Origin: Thermogemmata fonticola
GTDB taxonomy: Bacteria; Planctomycetota; Planctomycetia; Gemmatales; Gemmataceae
NCBI RefSeq assembly: GCF_013694095.1
Contig: NZ_JACEFB010000012.1
Span: forward strand, 62,001-126,000
Length of the DNA stretch: 64,000 bases
Reading direction: 5' to 3'
Below, piece after piece: positions 56,880 to 64,000 of the stretch. Positions within the stretch are counted from its first letter, which is position 1; each line of letters starts with the position of its first letter. A program made the translations under genes and the position numbers. Below the pieces are notes generated by a model. That model was not told the origin of the DNA. It ran no database searches and saw only the letters and a list, made by a program, of their open reading frames with translations.

Positions 56880-56952
56880 GGCCCTATCGTCTAGTGGTCT
56901 AGGACGTAGCCCTCTCAAGGCTAAAACTCGGGTTCGAATCCCGATAGGGTCA
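56880..56952 (+). tRNA. tRNA-Glu(CTC)
   Basis: A complete 73-base cloverleaf. The acceptor stem pairs GGCCCTA with TAGGGTC (one G-U), the anticodon loop CTCTCAA lies between TAGCC and GGCTA and gives CTC, reading GAG, and the T-arm is GGGTTCGAATCCC. The stop codon of the convergent integrase gene lies inside it, at 56921-56923. Its 3' half is the likely attachment site. Confidence 0.96.
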
Positions 56953-58351
56953 ACTTTTGACTTGGCACCGTACTGCACGATGATGCAACACGATGCGTAA
57001 CATCCTCAATTCCAAGCTCTTGCGACTCCCTGCGCCATATAGCACACTGTACTTCCGTATTCTGCTGTGCCGCAAACTGTGCCGCCTGTGTGCCGCTTTC
57101 TGTGCCGCCTGACAAGATGGGAGTATGGAGACAAGATGCCGATCTTGTCGGCGGTGGGACCGCTCCCAGCGGACCGCCCCACTGGCGGGCGAGGTCGAAG
57201 TGGGCATCCGTGACCTGGAGATAGTGATCTTGGGCTACCGCCGCCGTATTCCCCAGCCACTCACAGACAACGTGATCCGGAAAAGTGTTGGCCAGGTCCG
57301 TCTGAGCCGAGGCCCGCAGGTTGTGCCACAGGCGCGGCCAGGGCCGGATTCCCGCCCGCTTGAGCATCCGCAGGAAGTGTGTCCGCAGATTCACGCTCCC
57401 CCAGAAGCCCCTATCCGCCGCCTTGGCACTCTCCCGCTGCCGCAAGTGGTGAAAGATGTAGATGCTCCCCTCCGGGGCTTGATCCCAGACTTCCTGGAGA
57501 TACGGCAGCACTTGCGGTAGAATCGGCACCACCCGAAAGCCCTTGCCGCTCCGCTCAGTTTTCGGACTGGGGACTCGGAGGCGCTGTTTCTCCCAATCCA
57601 CACAGTCCCACGTGAGAGAGAATGGCTCACTCGGCACTCGCAAGCCCAAGTAGCGAGCAAGAGCCAGGAGCAAGCGCCACTCCGCCGATGGGGCTTGTTC
57701 CCGGATCAGCCGCTCTATTACGTCAGCGGGAACATAAGCCTGGCGATCCCGATTGCGGGCCTCCGGTCGCTTGATCCCCGCGAAGGGACTCTCTGCAATC
57801 AGTTTCTGACGCACGGCGTCGGCAAAGATGCTGCGACAATGCCCTAGTCGCCGATGCACCGTCGCCGGAGCCAGGGCCTTGGGCTTTTTGGGTTGCCGCG
57901 GCGAACGTCCCCCCGCCAGCAGCCATTTGCGAAAGTCGTCAGCCTGACCTGCTGTGATGGAATCGATCCGGCAATCCTCCCCGAAGTAAGTTAGCAGATT
58001 CCGGACAGTCTGAGCAATCACGCCCCGACTGGCCTCTTTGACGTGCGTGTGCCGCTCCAGATAGGACTGGAGAAACTCCCCCAGCGTCATGCACTTCGGC
58101 GCTTCGACAAGCCCCAGCTTCACCAGCTTCTCGCGCAGCTCGCCATGCAATTCCTTCAGCCACGTTGCCGTGTCTGGGGGAATTGGCAAGCCGCGAACCT
58201 GAGCCGCGAGTAAAGCTTCGATATGGATAGCGATAGCTTGAGCTGTTCGCTTGTCGCACTTGCCCAGCCGCACCGTTTTCCGCTTCCCATCGCGCGGGTC
58301 AAGGAACAGGATGCGCTTGCGACCGTTGGCATCATTCCCAATGCTGGCCAT
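56921..58351 (-). CDS. Tyrosine recombinase (integrase)
   Basis: Predicted 476 residues; ATG 58351 has GGAGG five bases upstream, and the longer frame to 58528 is not coding-like. An N-terminal arm-binding/core-binding part (to about residue 175) precedes the catalytic domain. Expected catalytic residues: Arg near residue 238 in LGLRVPSEPF, Lys in SPKTERSGKG, His and Arg in LWHNLRAS near 343, and the nucleophile Tyr in AQDHYLQ near 376. The last 100 residues are low in structure and end in SGFEPEF, encoded within tRNA-Glu. It should integrate and excise the element there. Part of the tail reappears as a scrap at 29583. Confidence 0.93.
   Translation of the reverse strand: MASIGNDANGRKRILFLDPRDGKRKTVRLGKCDKRTAQAIAIHIEALLAAQVRGLPIPPDTATWLKELHGELREKLVKLGLVEAPKCMTLGEFLQSYLERHTHVKEASRGVIAQTVRNLLTYFGEDCRIDSITAGQADDFRKWLLAGGRSPRQPKKPKALAPATVHRRLGHCRSIFADAVRQKLIAESPFAGIKRPEARNRDRQAYVPADVIERLIREQAPSAEWRLLLALARYLGLRVPSEPFSLTWDCVDWEKQRLRVPSPKTERSGKGFRVVPILPQVLPYLQEVWDQAPEGSIYIFHHLRQRESAKAADRGFWGSVNLRTHFLRMLKRAGIRPWPRLWHNLRASAQTDLANTFPDHVVCEWLGNTAAVAQDHYLQVTDAHFDLARQWGGPLGAVPPPTRSASCLHTPILSGGTESGTQAAQFAAQQNTEVQCAIWRRESQELGIEDVTHRVASSCSTVPSQKLTLSGFEPEF
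57154..57171 (-). repeat. Single copy of the 18-bp CGCTGGGAGCGGTCCCAC repeat
   Basis: The reverse complement of this exact 18-mer occurs within the integrase gene, where it encodes PLGAVPP. Multiple copies lie at 62797 and 63039 in the same element. Confidence 0.85.
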
Positions 58352-58413
58352 AGGTGCCTCCGAAAACACAGAGTACCACGGGAAGGAAGGGGGAACAAGC
58401 CGGGGCGAGGGGA

Positions 58414-58848
58414 TTATTTTTTCCGGCGCGGGAGGCGATCCGAAAGATGAAAAGTGTTGATCAACTCCCGCATCCGCTGGAGCCAGCCCTCCAGCCACTC
58501 TTTCTCGTGCCACTGGTAATACAAGCACTCGACCTCCAGGTCACCCCGAATCCCCCGCCGGTTGGCGGCCTGCCACATGGCCAGGTCAAAATCAGCCAGC
58601 GCCTCCCTGAGTTGGAACCAACGGTCGCGGCACTTTTGCACGTCGGCTGCTGGCGGGGCGTCAGCCGCGGCGGCGAGCCATTGGAGCCATTCGGGGTGGG
58701 CATGCAGGCGGCGCGCCGCTTCCAGCAACTCCCCTTCCAGCCCCCATTCACTCTCCACTGGCGTTTGCCGCACTTTCGACAAAACGCCTGCGGCCAGCAA
58801 CTTCCGAATCACGGGAACGGCTTCGGTTTTGTTCAACGGCTTCGTCAT
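58414..58848 (-). CDS. Hypothetical protein, integrated element
   Basis: Predicted 144 residues; ATG 58848 has AGGAGG five bases upstream. It is helical and charged with many Trp and Leu residues (PEWLQWLAAAADAPP, then LYYQWHEKEWLEGWLQRMREL). No known motif. It is 62 bases from the integrase gene downstream on the same strand and next to the repeat cluster, so it may be a small accessory or excision factor, by position only. Confidence 0.7.
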   Translation of the reverse strand: MTKPLNKTEAVPVIRKLLAAGVLSKVRQTPVESEWGLEGELLEAARRLHAHPEWLQWLAAAADAPPAADVQKCRDRWFQLREALADFDLAMWQAANRRGIRGDLEVECLYYQWHEKEWLEGWLQRMRELINTFHLSDRLPRRKK

Positions 58849-58912
58849 GGGAACCTCCTACATGTTAGTAACACACTGATAAGGGTACACACATACAAAC
58901 CTCCCAGGGGGT

Positions 58913-59031
58913 CAGATGGCCAAAATTCGCTTATATATAGGGAATTTTGGCCATCTGGTCCGGCAAACCCGTGGATTTCCAGGGTTTTCCTCTTTTGGAA
59001 TTCTGGCCACCTGACCCAGATGGCCAAAATT
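58913..59031. repeat. Four inverted 15-bp iteron-like repeats
   Basis: CAGATGGCCAAAATT occurs at 58913-58927 and 59017-59031, its perfect reverse complement at 58943-58957, and a reverse-complement copy with two changes within 58997-59016. They form two inverted pairs, one facing inward and one outward, in the 241-base gap after the primase-helicase gene. The first pair could also fold as a 15-bp hairpin. Such an arrangement suggests binding sites for an element-encoded initiator or recombination directionality factor. Confidence 0.75.
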
Positions 59032-59089
59032 CCGAGTCTCACAGTCGCAGCATGTATGTAGAGGGTTCAACATCTTTTGTTCCAGTTAG

Positions 59090-60937
59090 TTATTGATCGA
59101 AAAGCTGGGCTACGGCTTCGGGGGCGGGCTTCCACCCTGGCAGCGCCCATACCCACCCGTTCGCCATCTGGCGGGGGCGGATTCCCAGCCGAGCCTTGGC
59201 GCGATGTAGTGTTTTCTGAGCGATCCCGGCCGCGCGGGCCTGAGCGAAAATGTCACGTGCCGAAAGCGGCCCGCGGCGCAGGACAACCTCCAGGAATTCC
59301 GTGGCTTCCTGAAGCTCTGTTGGGGGACGGCCAGGCTGGGCTTCCTCTTTGGCAGCCCGTTGCTCGGCCAGGATTACGTCCGCGGTCCGCTCTGGCGGCA
59401 GCTGCCCGCCCCAGGCCAGAACCGGGGGCGTGCCGGTAATGCGGAACTCCAGGCCAGGCGCGGGGCGCGCGAGATTCATTTTTCCACTGGCCAGGACCCG
59501 CTCCCCATCGTGGGGTTTCTCCCCCGGCAGGACGTGCCACACAGCCCGTGCCAATGCGGTAAAGGCGACCGAGCCGAGCACCTGGGAATCGGCTGCATCG
59601 GCGGCGGCCTTGCGGAGGTGGGCGACGACCAAAATCGCCAGGTTTTTCTCTTTCGCCAGCTCGGCCAGGGGCGAAAGTGCCGCCCTCACCGCGTTATCGC
59701 GGAAGGCATCGGTTTGAGCGCCCAGGTGATTCCCAATAGGGTCGATGATCAGCAAACGACAGTCCGGCGTGCGGTCGATGATACGGGCGGCCCTCTCCAC
59801 CTCGAAAGTGTCCAGCGGGGTCGTGACGGCCCGGACCCTGTTCACGTCCGCACCAGCGGCCCGCAAGCGGGGCTTCAGGACGCGGGCGGCGTCATCCTCC
59901 AGGTTGACGATGACGACCCCGCCCTGCGGCGCAACGCCGGAACCGTCGGGCCAAGGGCTGCCGGTGGTGATCCGGCCCGCGATGTCCAGCGCCAGTAGCG
60001 ATTTCCCCAGCCCCTGGCGGCCTGCGAGGAGGGAGACGAAACCCAGGGGGAAGCGATCTGGCCACAGCCAGTCCACTTCCCGCTCTTGGAGCTCAGCCAG
60101 GCACACGTCTCCATCATCCGCGGGCGCAGGCAGATGTCCCGGCCGCCACCGCGCCGCGGACCTCAAAATGTCCTCCACCTCGCTTTCGGGCAGCGGCGGT
60201 GTGCATCGCGTCCGGTTCTCTGTGATGAGGGCCGCCCGGATTGCCTCCAGGGACATCCCCTTGTCGCGTAGCTTCCCCGCAAGCGCGACAAGGGTCGTTT
60301 TCCGCCGCCCTTCGGGGATGCGGGCCCCCTCCGACCCAGCGGTGATGTGACCGTTAGCCGTGCCGTTGAGCGCCGCCCCGTTGACACTGACAGACACGGC
60401 GGCGACTGGGGCGGGCGGTCGGGGTTGTTCGGCCAACCGTTCCAGGAGCCAGACTGGTGGTTCCGGCAGTTCGTCACACGGCGGCGGCTTGCGGAGCCAC
60501 TCGTAGCGGCCGTTTGCGGTGCGGGACGGCGGGGTGACAATATGCCCTCCAACGGCACGCACGTCCACCCCCTCCCCCAACTGTCCAGCGGAGCAGCGGA
60601 TCTCCGCCAACTCCTGGGTGGCGAAGTACAAATGCAGGCCCCCGCGAGGCGAGCGCACCACCGCACCCGCTCGGTCCTGAAGCTCCTGATTGAGCGGTCC
60701 GTCATCCGGCCAGCCTAATCCGGCGGGCGCGTCAAGATCGATGACGATGAGATGGGAGGTAGAGATACCAACGTTCGCATCGGGCCGCCGAGACCACCAC
60801 TCGCGGATCGTCTTTGGCTCAGTGCTCGCGATCTTGTAACCTCCCTGCAACAGGGGAACCTTCTCTCCGGGCCGCAGGGGAAGGACGGCGTATCCCAGCT
60901 CGGCCAGTTCCAGGGCCGCTTGAAGGAGTTCACTCAC
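59090..60937 (-). CDS. Primase-polymerase / RepA-like helicase fusion
   Basis: Predicted 615 residues; GTG at 60937 overlaps the HTH gene's end by eight bases, with GGAGG eight bases upstream. Residues 1-180 are an archaeo-eukaryotic-type prim-pol domain: ELGYAVLPLRPGEKVPL, catalytic VIDLDAPAG, and SPRGGLHLYF. A linker with HTH pattern follows, then a RecA-fold ATPase: Walker A LLAGRQGLGKSLLALD near residue 304, Walker B CRLLIIDPIGNHLG and VVAHLRKAAADAADSQVLGS, of the RepA/hexameric helicase type. The C-terminal 90 residues have a winged-helix pattern. It probably primes and unwinds the element's own origin. Confidence 0.9.
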   Translation of the reverse strand: MSELLQAALELAELGYAVLPLRPGEKVPLLQGGYKIASTEPKTIREWWSRRPDANVGISTSHLIVIDLDAPAGLGWPDDGPLNQELQDRAGAVVRSPRGGLHLYFATQELAEIRCSAGQLGEGVDVRAVGGHIVTPPSRTANGRYEWLRKPPPCDELPEPPVWLLERLAEQPRPPAPVAAVSVSVNGAALNGTANGHITAGSEGARIPEGRRKTTLVALAGKLRDKGMSLEAIRAALITENRTRCTPPLPESEVEDILRSAARWRPGHLPAPADDGDVCLAELQEREVDWLWPDRFPLGFVSLLAGRQGLGKSLLALDIAGRITTGSPWPDGSGVAPQGGVVIVNLEDDAARVLKPRLRAAGADVNRVRAVTTPLDTFEVERAARIIDRTPDCRLLIIDPIGNHLGAQTDAFRDNAVRAALSPLAELAKEKNLAILVVAHLRKAAADAADSQVLGSVAFTALARAVWHVLPGEKPHDGERVLASGKMNLARPAPGLEFRITGTPPVLAWGGQLPPERTADVILAEQRAAKEEAQPGRPPTELQEATEFLEVVLRRGPLSARDIFAQARAAGIAQKTLHRAKARLGIRPRQMANGWVWALPGWKPAPEAVAQLFDQ

Positions 60938-61151
60938 TGCCGGCGCCTCCTTTCGCTTGTCCCTTCAACTGCTCGCGAATCCAGGCATCAAGAGCTTCGA
61001 TGGAGTACAAGACCCGGCTGTATTTCGGGTTTCCGGTCCCAAGCCTTACACAGGGGATCGGACCACGGGGACATGTAAGTTGCCAAAGCAGACGTGAGGA
61101 AATACCGAGGTAGTTTGCGGCTTCCCTTACTGATAACAGTGCCCGTTCCAT
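60930..61151 (-). CDS. Excisionase-like HTH protein
   Basis: Predicted 73 residues; ATG 61151 with GGAGG four bases upstream. MERALLSVREAANYLGISSRLLWQL has the helix-turn-helix of the MerR/excisionase family, followed by VRLGTGNPKYSRVLYSIEALDAWI, the wing and final helix. It may be the directionality factor for excision or a repressor. Its stop codon overlaps the next gene's start, so the two are translated together. Confidence 0.85.
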   Translation of the reverse strand: MERALLSVREAANYLGISSRLLWQLTCPRGPIPCVRLGTGNPKYSRVLYSIEALDAWIREQLKGQAKGGAGSE

Positions 61152-62165
61152 AGATCCTCCATTGTTTCTAACACCAGGATGCCGGCACAAGCAACTGTGC
61201 GCTTCCGTAGTTAGTAATAGCGCCTACTTGAGAAATTGATCGTATTTCCCGGAGGGATTTATGGAAAAAGTGGGAAATGATATAAAAAACGACGAATACT
61301 TCACATTTTTTTTCGTTCATGAAGCAGTTTTTAGTCAGTTTTAGCTACCTGTGATGCTGTTTTTTGTAATTTTCGATAAAGAAAGTGGATTTATTCAGTT
61401 TTAGTAATCTATGGAGTTGCTGCTTGAAATTGCAAAGTTTGGCATATCATCGCATCTCGGTCTTTGTTAGGCAGGAATAGATCGCTTAGCAGTCCTCTGA
61501 GTGGGACTAGAACTGCTAAACATTCGCCAGAAGTGGCAGGGGCGCTATCCACTTGGGAGTGGTCCTACCGCCGCCCAAAAAACCAACCGACCAGCTCCCC
61601 TTGCGGAACACTGGCCGGTCTGAGCTGCTTCTCAGGCTTGATTCCCGCGATCAAGCCCACTACGTGCTAGCCCTACTGACACAATCGGAAAAAGCGGCTA
61701 CAAGCATTGTAACACCCACCCGCTGATGGCGCTAGGCCGGCGGCCAGGCCCAGCCCCCGTCCCGTCCCAAGCCAGACCCCCTGTGGGCCACTGCCCGGAC
61801 ACTCTCAGGCCGCCCCTGCGGTGGTGCGCCTCCCGCTATGTCAGCCAATAAAAGAGGGCGGCTGCTGGAGTGCAACCGCCCCGGAGGTGAGGTTGGCCAT
61901 CCGTGACGACAAGTCGCGGAATCCACCCCTATCCTATCCCGTCCCCACCGCTCGGCGCAAGCCTAGTAGGGTGGCATTGTCAATTTTCCTACTTCCTGCT
62001 ATCTTTTTGCTCCGTTTGACGATGGAAACACCTGACCATCAGGAAGCCTGTTCCCATAAGCTTGCGCAGTCAAGAGCAAAACTGGAATAGGAACGGCCGA
62101 TAAGTCGTCGGCCTGAGCCATAGTCTATCCCGATAGATAAAGAGCGGGATCGACTCTAGAGGTGA
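61152..62165. other. Long AT-rich gap with short direct repeats
   Basis: About 1 kb without credible genes. 61200-61450 is the most A/T-rich stretch in the element. TCAGTTTTAG occurs at 61335-61344 and 61395-61404, exactly 60 bases apart, with looser similarity after it. The region carries the promoter of the HTH-primase operon and possibly an origin. A terminator at 61848 serves the gene to its right. Confidence 0.55.
61848..61881 (-). terminator. Intrinsic terminator of the 159-residue gene
   Basis: On the minus strand GGGCGGTTGC pairs with GCAGCCGCCC (ten pairs, one G-U) around a six-base loop, followed by TCTTTTAT. It lies about 285 bases after the stop of the gene at 62166. Confidence 0.7.
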
Positions 62166-62645
62166 TTACTGGGCTTGTCCCAGAATCTGACGGATTTGCT
62201 CCACAGTGACCTTGTGCCCTTGCTCAGCGAGTAGCTGCGCAATCTTCTCCGGGGCCATCTTCAGAGCTGCCAAGCCAGTGACGGCAGTTACCACTGCATC
62301 CTTCTCCGCAGCGGCACGGGCCACCTCTTCTGGAGCGGCCACCTCGAAGGCTGCTTTTCTCAGTTCCGGTGCTACTTGGGCAACCTTGTCGGCTCCCTTC
62401 TTCACCACAGCGTCGGCGATTTCCTTCTCGCTGGCCACCTCGAAGGCTGCTTTTCTCAGTTCCGGCACCATTTCCATCAGTCTCCTAGCGAGTTCTGGGC
62501 TGTCTTTCAGATACCGTTTGATGGCTTCGGCAAACCGCTCGGCACCCATCGCGGCCACCTCCCTGGCCACCCGGTCGCTGAGCCGCTTGTACTCCTGCTC
62601 CTTGAGAAACTCTTGATAGCGCCGATAGAGGTCTTCATCCTCCAT
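62166..62645 (-). CDS. Hypothetical helical protein with internal duplication
   Basis: Predicted 159 residues, wholly helical, rich in Ala/Glu/Lys. PELRKAAFEVA occurs twice 32 residues apart, matched by a 33-base DNA repeat with a 96-base period. No known family. The ribosome site is weak (AGG five bases before the ATG). It is the last gene before a terminator. Confidence 0.65.
   Translation of the reverse strand: MEDEDLYRRYQEFLKEQEYKRLSDRVAREVAAMGAERFAEAIKRYLKDSPELARRLMEMVPELRKAAFEVASEKEIADAVVKKGADKVAQVAPELRKAAFEVAAPEEVARAAAEKDAVVTAVTGLAALKMAPEKIAQLLAEQGHKVTVEQIRQILGQAQ
62337..62465. repeat. 33-bp direct repeat, period 96
   Basis: The 33 bases at 62337-62369 and 62433-62465 are identical and lie in one reading frame, giving a duplicated PELRKAAFEVA unit. 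The rest of each 32-codon unit has diverged, so the exact match suggests recent gene conversion or a tandem duplication. Confidence 0.85.
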
Positions 62646-62761: not shown

Positions 62762-63394
62762 TCAGGAACGCCTGAATCTGTTCCCAGTCCCTAAGCCGCT
62801 GGGAGCGGTCCCACCGCTGGGAGCGGTCCCAGCGCTAGGAGCAGTCCCACCGCTGGGAGCGGTCCCACCCTTGGCGGAACCAGCCGGAGCGGAAGCCAAG
62901 CCCCGCAGGAGGGCCTCGATGCCCTGCGATGGGGGGGCGGCAAACAATCCCAGGGACGACAGCGCCCCCCGCCGCCGCAGTTTCTCTACCAACCCCAACG
63001 GCCCCAGCCCCTGAAGTGACCGCCGCCGCACCGGCCTCCGCTGGGAACCGTCCCGCCGCTGGGAGCGGTCCCACCGCTGGGAGCGGTCCCACCGCTTTGG
63101 AACCTGACGCAGCAAGGCCACCGCCGCCTCCAAACGCACCTCATGCTTGTCCGAAGCCAGGAGCAACTTCAGAGTGTTCAGGGCTTGGATCGCCGCCTGC
63201 TTCACCTCCCCCCGCACCCACTCCATCATCTGCTGCCGCTGCGCCTCCAACGCTGCCCGAAAGGCGGGGTCAGCCATCCGTCGCTCCACGGTCCGCACAC
63301 TGCACTTGGCCAGGCGGGCAGCGGCCTGCTGGGTCTGGCCAGCGGCCAGGGCGGTGAGGAGCAACTCATCGACGGGACGGCGGGGGCGGGGCAT
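62762..63394 (-). CDS. Hypothetical HTH-containing protein with minisatellite-coded tails
   Basis: Predicted 210 residues; ATG 63394 has AGGAG nine bases upstream. The first part, PRPRRPVDELLLTALAAGQTQQ...CSVRTVERRMADPAF, looks like a helix-turn-helix domain such as in small terminase or transposase-like proteins, followed by a helix ending near residue 105. Then RWDRSQRWDRSQ, a basic region and GGTAPSGGTAPS arise from an 18-base repeat in two different frames. Those tails are probably disordered. Function unknown, with a possible DNA-binding role. Confidence 0.65.
   Translation of the reverse strand: MPRPRRPVDELLLTALAAGQTQQAAARLAKCSVRTVERRMADPAFRAALEAQRQQMMEWVRGEVKQAAIQALNTLKLLLASDKHEVRLEAAVALLRQVPKRWDRSQRWDRSQRRDGSQRRPVRRRSLQGLGPLGLVEKLRRRGALSSLGLFAAPPSQGIEALLRGLASAPAGSAKGGTAPSGGTAPSAGTAPSGGTAPSGLGTGNRFRRS
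62797..62868. repeat. Four tandem copies of an 18-bp minisatellite
   Basis: CGCTGGGAGCGGTCCCAC is repeated four times with zero to three changes per unit. Each unit contains the self-complementary GGGA/TCCC pair. In the minus-strand gene it encodes GGTAPS repeats. Confidence 0.9.
63039..63092. repeat. Three tandem copies of the same 18-bp minisatellite
   Basis: One diverged and two exact copies in the same orientation as the array at 62797, but in a different reading frame of the same gene, giving RWDRSQ repeats. Confidence 0.9.
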
Positions 63395-63518
63395 GGGGGC
63401 AAGCTCCTGAACCGGGCGGCGGTGTCTAAGGCATTCTACCCTGGTTCTGGCGGGTTGTGGCGGATTATGACGGGGGGAAGTGCCACCCTTGCATCGTGGG
63501 GGCGGGGGAGGGGTTGGA

Positions 63519-63746
63519 CTAGCAGAGCAGGTCCACCTCTGTGGCGATGATCCAGGCGAAGCGTTGGCGGACCTCTGGGGACACTTCCTCATCGCGGACA
63601 TACTTCCTGCATTCCGCTCCGCTGCCGAAGCCGTCGGGGAACGTGAGGCCGTCCTCGGTCACCAGGGCGAAGCCCCAGATGGAGTCATCACGTTTTTGGA
63701 GCCAGTAAGTGCCCTTGCTGTCGCGGACAAAGATAGGTCGGTTCAC
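63519..63746 (-). CDS. Small hypothetical protein, integrated element
   Basis: Predicted 75 residues from a GTG at 63746, with GGGAG upstream and the stop codon of the previous frame overlapping as GTGA; an ATG at 63761 is an alternative. The sequence FVRDSKGTYWLQKRDDSIWGFALVTEDGLTF looks like a small compact beta domain. No known family. Confidence 0.65.
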   Translation of the reverse strand: MNRPIFVRDSKGTYWLQKRDDSIWGFALVTEDGLTFPDGFGSGAECRKYVRDEEVSPEVRQRFAWIIATEVDLLC

Positions 63747-64000
63747 GGTTCTCTCTCCCATGTGTTCCGTTCCGCTGGCTGGCTTTCGGACCGTCCGAGA
63801 GCCTGGATCAGGGTAGTCAGCAGAGTGCGGATACTCTCGCTGAGCGTTGGCCACAGAGCGGCTAGTCCTTCTAGGTCAGATGGCAGACTGGTAAAAACTG
63901 TCGGATGCTCTGCCATCCCTTGTCTACTAGTGGACGTACATGTAGACAGTCGTTGATCTACATCTTGTAGATGCTCGCCTGACTGTACTGGCTTTGCTGT
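63743..64000 (-). CDS. Hypothetical protein, C-terminal part cut by window edge
   Basis: The frame is open from the right edge to a TGA at 63743-63745, giving at least 85 codons, and overlaps the next gene's GTG. The last part, LPSDLEGLAALWPTLSESIR TLLTTLIQALGR pattern, is helical and coding-like, with a polar Glu/Arg tail. Too little is seen to name it. It is the first visible gene of a likely operon with the 75-residue protein. Confidence 0.5.
   Translation of the reverse strand, partial: TAKPVQSGEHLQDVDQRLSTCTSTSRQGMAEHPTVFTSLPSDLEGLAALWPTLSESIRTLLTTLIQALGRSESQPAERNTWEREP

Follow-up and report, generated by a model that had tools for sequence, protein, structure and literature searches.

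A dyad-repeat cluster directly behind a primase-helicase gene as the probable replication origin of a small element integrated at tRNA-Glu in Thermogemmata fonticola

The window, the 64,000-nucleotide stretch of Thermogemmata fonticola DNA analysed here, carries nearly all of an integrated element of about 7.15 kb. The element is delimited by an exact 19-bp duplication of the 3' end of tRNA-Glu, and its second end lies just beyond the window. The following features were annotated.

56880..56952, + strand: tRNA-Glu (CTC), the integration target (ARAGORN; Rfam RF00005)
56934..56952, + strand: attL core TCGAATCCCGATAGGGTCA, the tRNA 3' end (exact 19-bp duplication)
56921..58351, - strand: tyrosine integrase, Phage_integrase with SAM-like core-binding domain (PF00589, 1.7e-10; PF13102, 5e-8; phrog_1, 8.6e-43)
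58414..58848, - strand: ORF144, no assigned function (ORF list, Pfam, phrog)
58909..59033, no strand: dyad-repeat cluster, proposed as the element's replication origin (repeat search and fold; position conserved in relatives)
59090..60937, - strand: Rep, PrimPol / RepA-like helicase / winged helix (Pfam; AF2 model; fold matches)
60930..61190, - strand: HTH_17 excisionase/AlpA-like protein (Pfam HTH_17, 3e-7; NCBIfam excise, 3e-4)
62166..62645, - strand: ORF159, no assigned function (ORF list, Pfam, phrog)
62762..63601, - strand: ORF279, weak terminase-small-subunit/HTH similarity (phrog_4044, 6e-5; phrog_2538, 7e-5)
63519..63854, - strand: ORF111, no assigned function (ORF list, Pfam, phrog)
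Contig C12:126062-126080, window-equivalent 64062-64080: attR, the second 19-bp copy, 62 bp past the right edge of the window

An integrase, together with copies of the tRNA 3' end in direct orientation at either boundary, identifies this as an element integrated in a tRNA gene. From the tRNA outward the gene order is int, ORF144, the repeat gap, Rep, HTH_17, ORF159, ORF279 and ORF111, and all detected genes of the element are directed toward the tRNA and int. The stop codon of the HTH_17 excisionase-like gene overlaps the start of rep. ORF144 had no counterpart in any other genome of the family (95 genomes). Packaging genes of the PICI type were represented by the weak TerS-like match in ORF279 only, and no Phage_capsid_4 gene was found in the genome. 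When a sister genome was considered as an empty site, its tRNA-Glu was 95% identical and neither flank was common to both genomes. About 1 kb upstream of the xis-like gene (window 61190-62166) is without a convincing gene. ORF279 contains an 18-bp, nearly palindromic unit, CCGCTGGGAGCGGTCCCA, in two arrays (window 62796-62869 and 63038-63096), which might be noncoding repeats crossed by an open frame.

The gap between the Rep gene and ORF144 holds four copies of a 16-bp repeat, arranged as two inverted pairs.

58913-58928, + strand: repeat copy 1, CAGATGGCCAAAATTC (exact 16-mer)
58931-58940, no strand: TTATATATAG, AT-rich loop within the first inverted pair, possible melting site (from the sequence)
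58942-58957, - strand: repeat copy 2, CAGATGGCCAAAATTC, exact and inverted relative to copy 1
58958..58997, no strand: 40-bp spacer separating the two inverted pairs, with a small AAACCC/GGGTTT dyad within it
58998-59013, - strand: repeat copy 3, CAGGTGGCCAGAATTC, 2 mismatches
59017-59032, + strand: repeat copy 4, CAGATGGCCAAAATTC, exact

The first pair encloses a 13-bp loop and the second a 3-bp loop, so that the order read along rep is reverse, forward, 40-bp spacer, forward, reverse. A sequence-only reading of this locus had reported four copies, three of them exact, in two inverted pairs; that description holds, with the unit corrected from 15 bases to 16 bp. It had also noted TTATATATAG at its present position and placed it between the pairs, whereas it sits inside the first one. 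When the whole 64-kb window was dinucleotide-shuffled 100 times, four matches at ≤3 mismatches never occurred (mean 0.58, maximum 3). The arrangement is confined to this gap: the 16-bp unit is absent elsewhere in the 4.8-Mb genome, the 12-mer TGGCCAAAATTC occurs three times in the genome and AGRTGGCCARAATTC four times, in each case within the cluster. Single-strand DNA folding of the region gives two strong hairpins, to which the spacer adds a small one from AAACCC/GGGTTT (z = -8.4). The AT-rich candidate for unwinding is the TATATATA loop in the first pair; the GC content of the spacer is 52.5%, that of the gap 47% and that of the element 61%.

Rep contains PrimPol (residues 8-159), PriCT-1 (207-266) and AAA_25 RecA-fold helicase (284-445) domains by Pfam. 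An AlphaFold model of residues 268-615, built with relatives from viral contigs, was confident (pLDDT 86.8) and placed a C-terminal winged helix of three helices and two strands at about 540-600. The helicase core has a RecA fold and matches RSF1010 RepA and DnaB among many RecA-fold proteins, all at Z about 21, a value that cannot decide the family within this fold. The best matches of the C-terminal piece alone were winged-helix DNA-binding proteins and repressors, with probability up to 0.97 and E-values all >0.05. Fold searches outside the helicase core and winged helix returned nothing specific, and a PDB sequence search gave no match. As modelled, the helicase is of the RepA/DnaB type and not SF3, so Rep falls outside the pRN type. 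Rep is predicted to combine in one protein the repeat-binding, unwinding and priming functions that in RSF1010 are split over RepC, RepA and RepB'.

Relatives of Rep were sought in the family set of 95 genomes and in viral contigs. Scans with the single protein gave one weak genome match and zero viral matches; an alignment query yielded 48 independent loci from viral contigs, and the loci of 38 distant relatives were retrieved from the family, with identity up to about 45%. A relative of intermediate identity (>50%), suited to base-level conservation, was absent from the 95 genomes. Close DNA homologues were found neither in phages nor, above chance level, in the family.

A cluster was defined as at least four copies of a 12-mer, with at most one mismatch, within 450 bp. 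In viral contigs this was reached downstream of rep at 9 of 41 loci, upstream of rep at 0 of 42 and in 4 of 813 control windows. The pooled test was de-duplicated, excluded the window and took other gene 3' ends in the same loci as control: at least four copies were present at 13 of 49 rep 3' ends (27%) versus 6 of 376 other gene 3' ends (OR 22, P = 2e-9). The comparison with homologous elements that the sequence-only reading had proposed therefore came out in its favour, a significant share of relatives keeping a dyad or iteron cluster at the rep 3' end; about one quarter reach four copies, and many have two, three or none by this criterion. Repeated, mostly inverted words lie directly 3' of rep in L066, L077, L078, L085, L089, L093 and L098. 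L066, the closest full-length relative, has seven copies of GAAGGTGGCCA. The cluster is 3' of rep irrespective of the next recognised gene, be it int (L066, L089), TerL (L117), an SNF2 helicase (L125) or a ParB-like gene (L140), and it may overlap the rep stop codon (L089, L098, L066).

Two further arrangements were observed among the relatives. In L078 (G002:C109, 4788-5200), an 888-aa prim-pol gene is directly followed by ten forward and then nine reverse copies of the iteron-like 12-mer TGTCTACGAAAC, 19 in all, an opposing iteron array of textbook form. L073, L075 and L084, which are among the 700-800-aa prim-pol proteins matching only the PrimPol part, share a 3' motif of their own, AGTAATTG(C/T)(C/T)GT, in two or three copies at the same place. 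This motif perhaps marks a second origin class.

The repeat sequence differs among elements, most of which have a core like (A)AG(A/G/T)TG(G/C)CCA. Under a matrix derived from the relatives only, AGATGGCCA of the window ranks in the top 2e-5 of random 9-mers. In a 64-kb scan with a PWM trained on the relatives, the window's copies were not at the top, because the common part is a 9-base core only (AG[AG]TGGCCA; P = 2e-5 per 9-mer); motif identity with the relatives is therefore partial. Repeat copy 3 has the 10-mer AGGTGGCCAG in common with the repeats behind rep of L066. Motif matches at G074:C1:946826 and G070:C78 were single copies with no rep homologue nearby.

Similarity of the repeats followed similarity of the C-terminal winged helix in a small, post hoc covariation test of 17 loci (Mantel r = 0.47, P = 0.003). 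The association persisted when the helicase domain was controlled for (partial Mantel r = 0.41, P = 0.007), and in the reverse test helicase similarity added nothing (r = 0.03, P = 0.38). This is the pattern expected if the winged helix binds the repeats.

On evidence that is computational throughout, we consider it very likely that this 7.1-kb tRNA-integrated element replicates from the cluster at 58909-59033, and that this origin is bound by the winged helix of the element's own initiator. An origin beside the prim-pol/RepA-like gene had been the main proposal of the sequence-only reading, and it gains support from the clusters kept at rep 3' ends and from a repeat sequence that follows the winged helix. 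If the element is still mobile today, Int and the HTH_17 Xis-like protein would excise it as a circle, which would be copied by its single initiator, Rep. The C-terminal winged helix of Rep would bind the inverted 16-bp repeats that directly follow the rep gene, and the RepA-like RecA-fold ring helicase would open the duplex at the AT-rich loop or at the spacer. The PrimPol domain would then lay the first primer, after which a host polymerase would take over.

The repeats might instead be operators or a promoter region for ORF144 and int downstream, bound by Rep or by the HTH protein and controlling integrase expression. The gap is the only long one from rep to int, ORF144 and int need some source of expression, and an AGGAGG precedes ORF144; however, no sigma-70-like promoter was found in 58300-59300, and in relatives the cluster follows rep whatever gene is next and can extend over its stop codon, as in the three loci named above. 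We regard this explanation as unlikely. Origin repeats often serve as operators too, and a cluster that is an origin could also take part in autoregulating rep or int. The presence of an Xis/AlpA-like HTH_17 gene would suit sites for excisionase or integrase arm sites, the alternative that the sequence-only reading had offered as directionality-factor sites. Arm and Xis sites are normally found no more than a few hundred bases from the attachment core, whereas the cluster is about 2 kb from it, with int in between. Its position tracks rep, even where TerL, an SNF2 helicase or a ParB-like gene comes next, and its sequence tracks the Rep winged helix, which makes a role in directionality very unlikely.

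Some insertion sequences end in inverted pairs of this size, and the copies could be the remnant of a dispersed repeat (IS ends, a MITE or a REP-like sequence). This candidate was rejected on finding zero further copies in the genome; moreover, the layout (- + spacer + -) is unlike IS ends, and the recurring clusters are tied to rep genes and not scattered, so that such a remnant is very improbable. Both inverted pairs fold strongly, as a terminator or structured RNA downstream of rep would, yet a T-run after the hairpins is absent, a terminator search found none in the gap and an Rfam search of the gap was without match. In several relatives the layout of the copies is not one that forms hairpins (L085; the forward array of L078). 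An element acting at the RNA level is accordingly given hardly any credence.

The position of the cluster has counterparts in characterised replicons. The PICI origin directly follows the 3' end of the initiator gene and has two sets of iterons, between which lies an AT-rich region (PMC6092414). Like the PICI/SaPI pri-rep-ori arrangement (PMC6092414), the present element is a small island with int, an excisionase-like regulator and a primase-initiator followed by ori, here assigned by position and proposed to lie immediately 3' of the initiator gene. It also has two repeat sets around a spacer; here, however, the repeats are inverted pairs, the spacer they flank is not AT-rich, the helicase is RepA/DnaB-like (RecA fold) and all detected genes point toward int. 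In pRN1, the PrimPol-helicase-winged-helix gene is followed by 166 essential bp, within which a 100-nt stem-loop is the origin (PMC4234260). Its ORF904 likewise has PrimPol, helicase and C-terminal winged helix in one protein (PMC4234260), and the placing of the origin right after the gene for this protein is matched here by cluster position only. Unlike the present element, pRN1 is archaeal, has an SF3 helicase and uses a single 100-nt stem-loop origin without iterons.

RSF1010, with RepA/RepB'/RepC and an iteron oriV (PMC4234260), resembles the element in origin repeats, repeat binding (here predicted), primase and a RepA-type hexameric helicase (here a fold match), but it uses three separate proteins where one fused protein is found here, and it is not integrative. 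The alpha protein of phage P4 is a single protein that binds origin repeats by a winged helix, unwinds and primes (PMC4234260), as is predicted for Rep; P4 alpha has a Toprim-type bacterial primase, whereas the primase of Rep is a PrimPol of archaeo-eukaryotic type and its helicase is RepA-type. PICMI satellites (PMC10803314) are also very small islands with int, an AlpA/HTH_17-like regulator and a primase, but they belong to Vibrionaceae, sit in fis and have primases of the DUF3987/DUF5906 kind. In the PLE satellite, the origin repeats are bound by its own initiator, as shown by EMSA and genetics (PMC7145576). The present case matches PICI, pRN1 and PLE in position and logic and differs in helicase type, in inverted-pair layout and in a spacer only modestly rich in AT. 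The element should not be classed as a PICI, a type marked by helper-phage induction, packaging and interference, or as a pRN replicon, whose helicase is SF3.

Related elements carry different cargo. In L066, L089 and L063 an integrase is next to rep and an HTH (HTH_17) homologue lies upstream of it. L089/L151 (G001:C11:140332-149361) is an element of about 9.0 kb with a 21-bp att repeat at tRNA-Val, carrying int, rep, xis and an S49 protease-major capsid fusion; the capsid gene hints at a satellite-like life, and the element may be a satellite that carries a capsid gene, or a very small phage. L065/L152 (G074:C1:618472-633473) is about 14.9 kb long, with a 46-bp att repeat at tRNA-Arg. Its cargo is a type-III-like restriction system (ResIII helicase, N6/N4 methylase, DUF4391, SNF2 helicase), which adjoins the same kind of rep and origin-like cluster. 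L089 and L065 differ in cargo, and the module of int, origin-like cluster and rep therefore recurs across cargo types.

More broadly, we see an even chance that these form a hitherto undescribed group of small elements integrated at tRNA genes, some of them satellite-like, such as the 9-kb relative with the protease-capsid gene. They would share a one-protein, RSF1010-type initiation (PrimPol, RepA-type helicase and origin-binding winged helix) and a portable origin, identifiable from the dyad cluster at the 3' terminus of rep, whose repeat co-evolves with the winged helix. PICIs and pRN1 already provide the principle of an origin behind its initiator gene; new here is the predicted joining of primase, RSF1010-RepA-like helicase and origin binder in one protein. 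A computable rule follows, namely to seek dyad clusters behind AAA_25/PrimPol rep genes as origins in the many uncharacterised integrative elements and viral contigs. The Rep winged helix and the repeats are a concrete protein-DNA pair for testing, and for bacteria that have few genetic tools the element offers a replicon that is compact and self-contained.

At window 57066-57111, two 23-bp copies in tandem (TGTGCCGCAAACTGTGCCGCCTG) lie between the attachment site and the conserved part of int. Integrase arm sites are more plausibly placed in these copies than in the repeat cluster.
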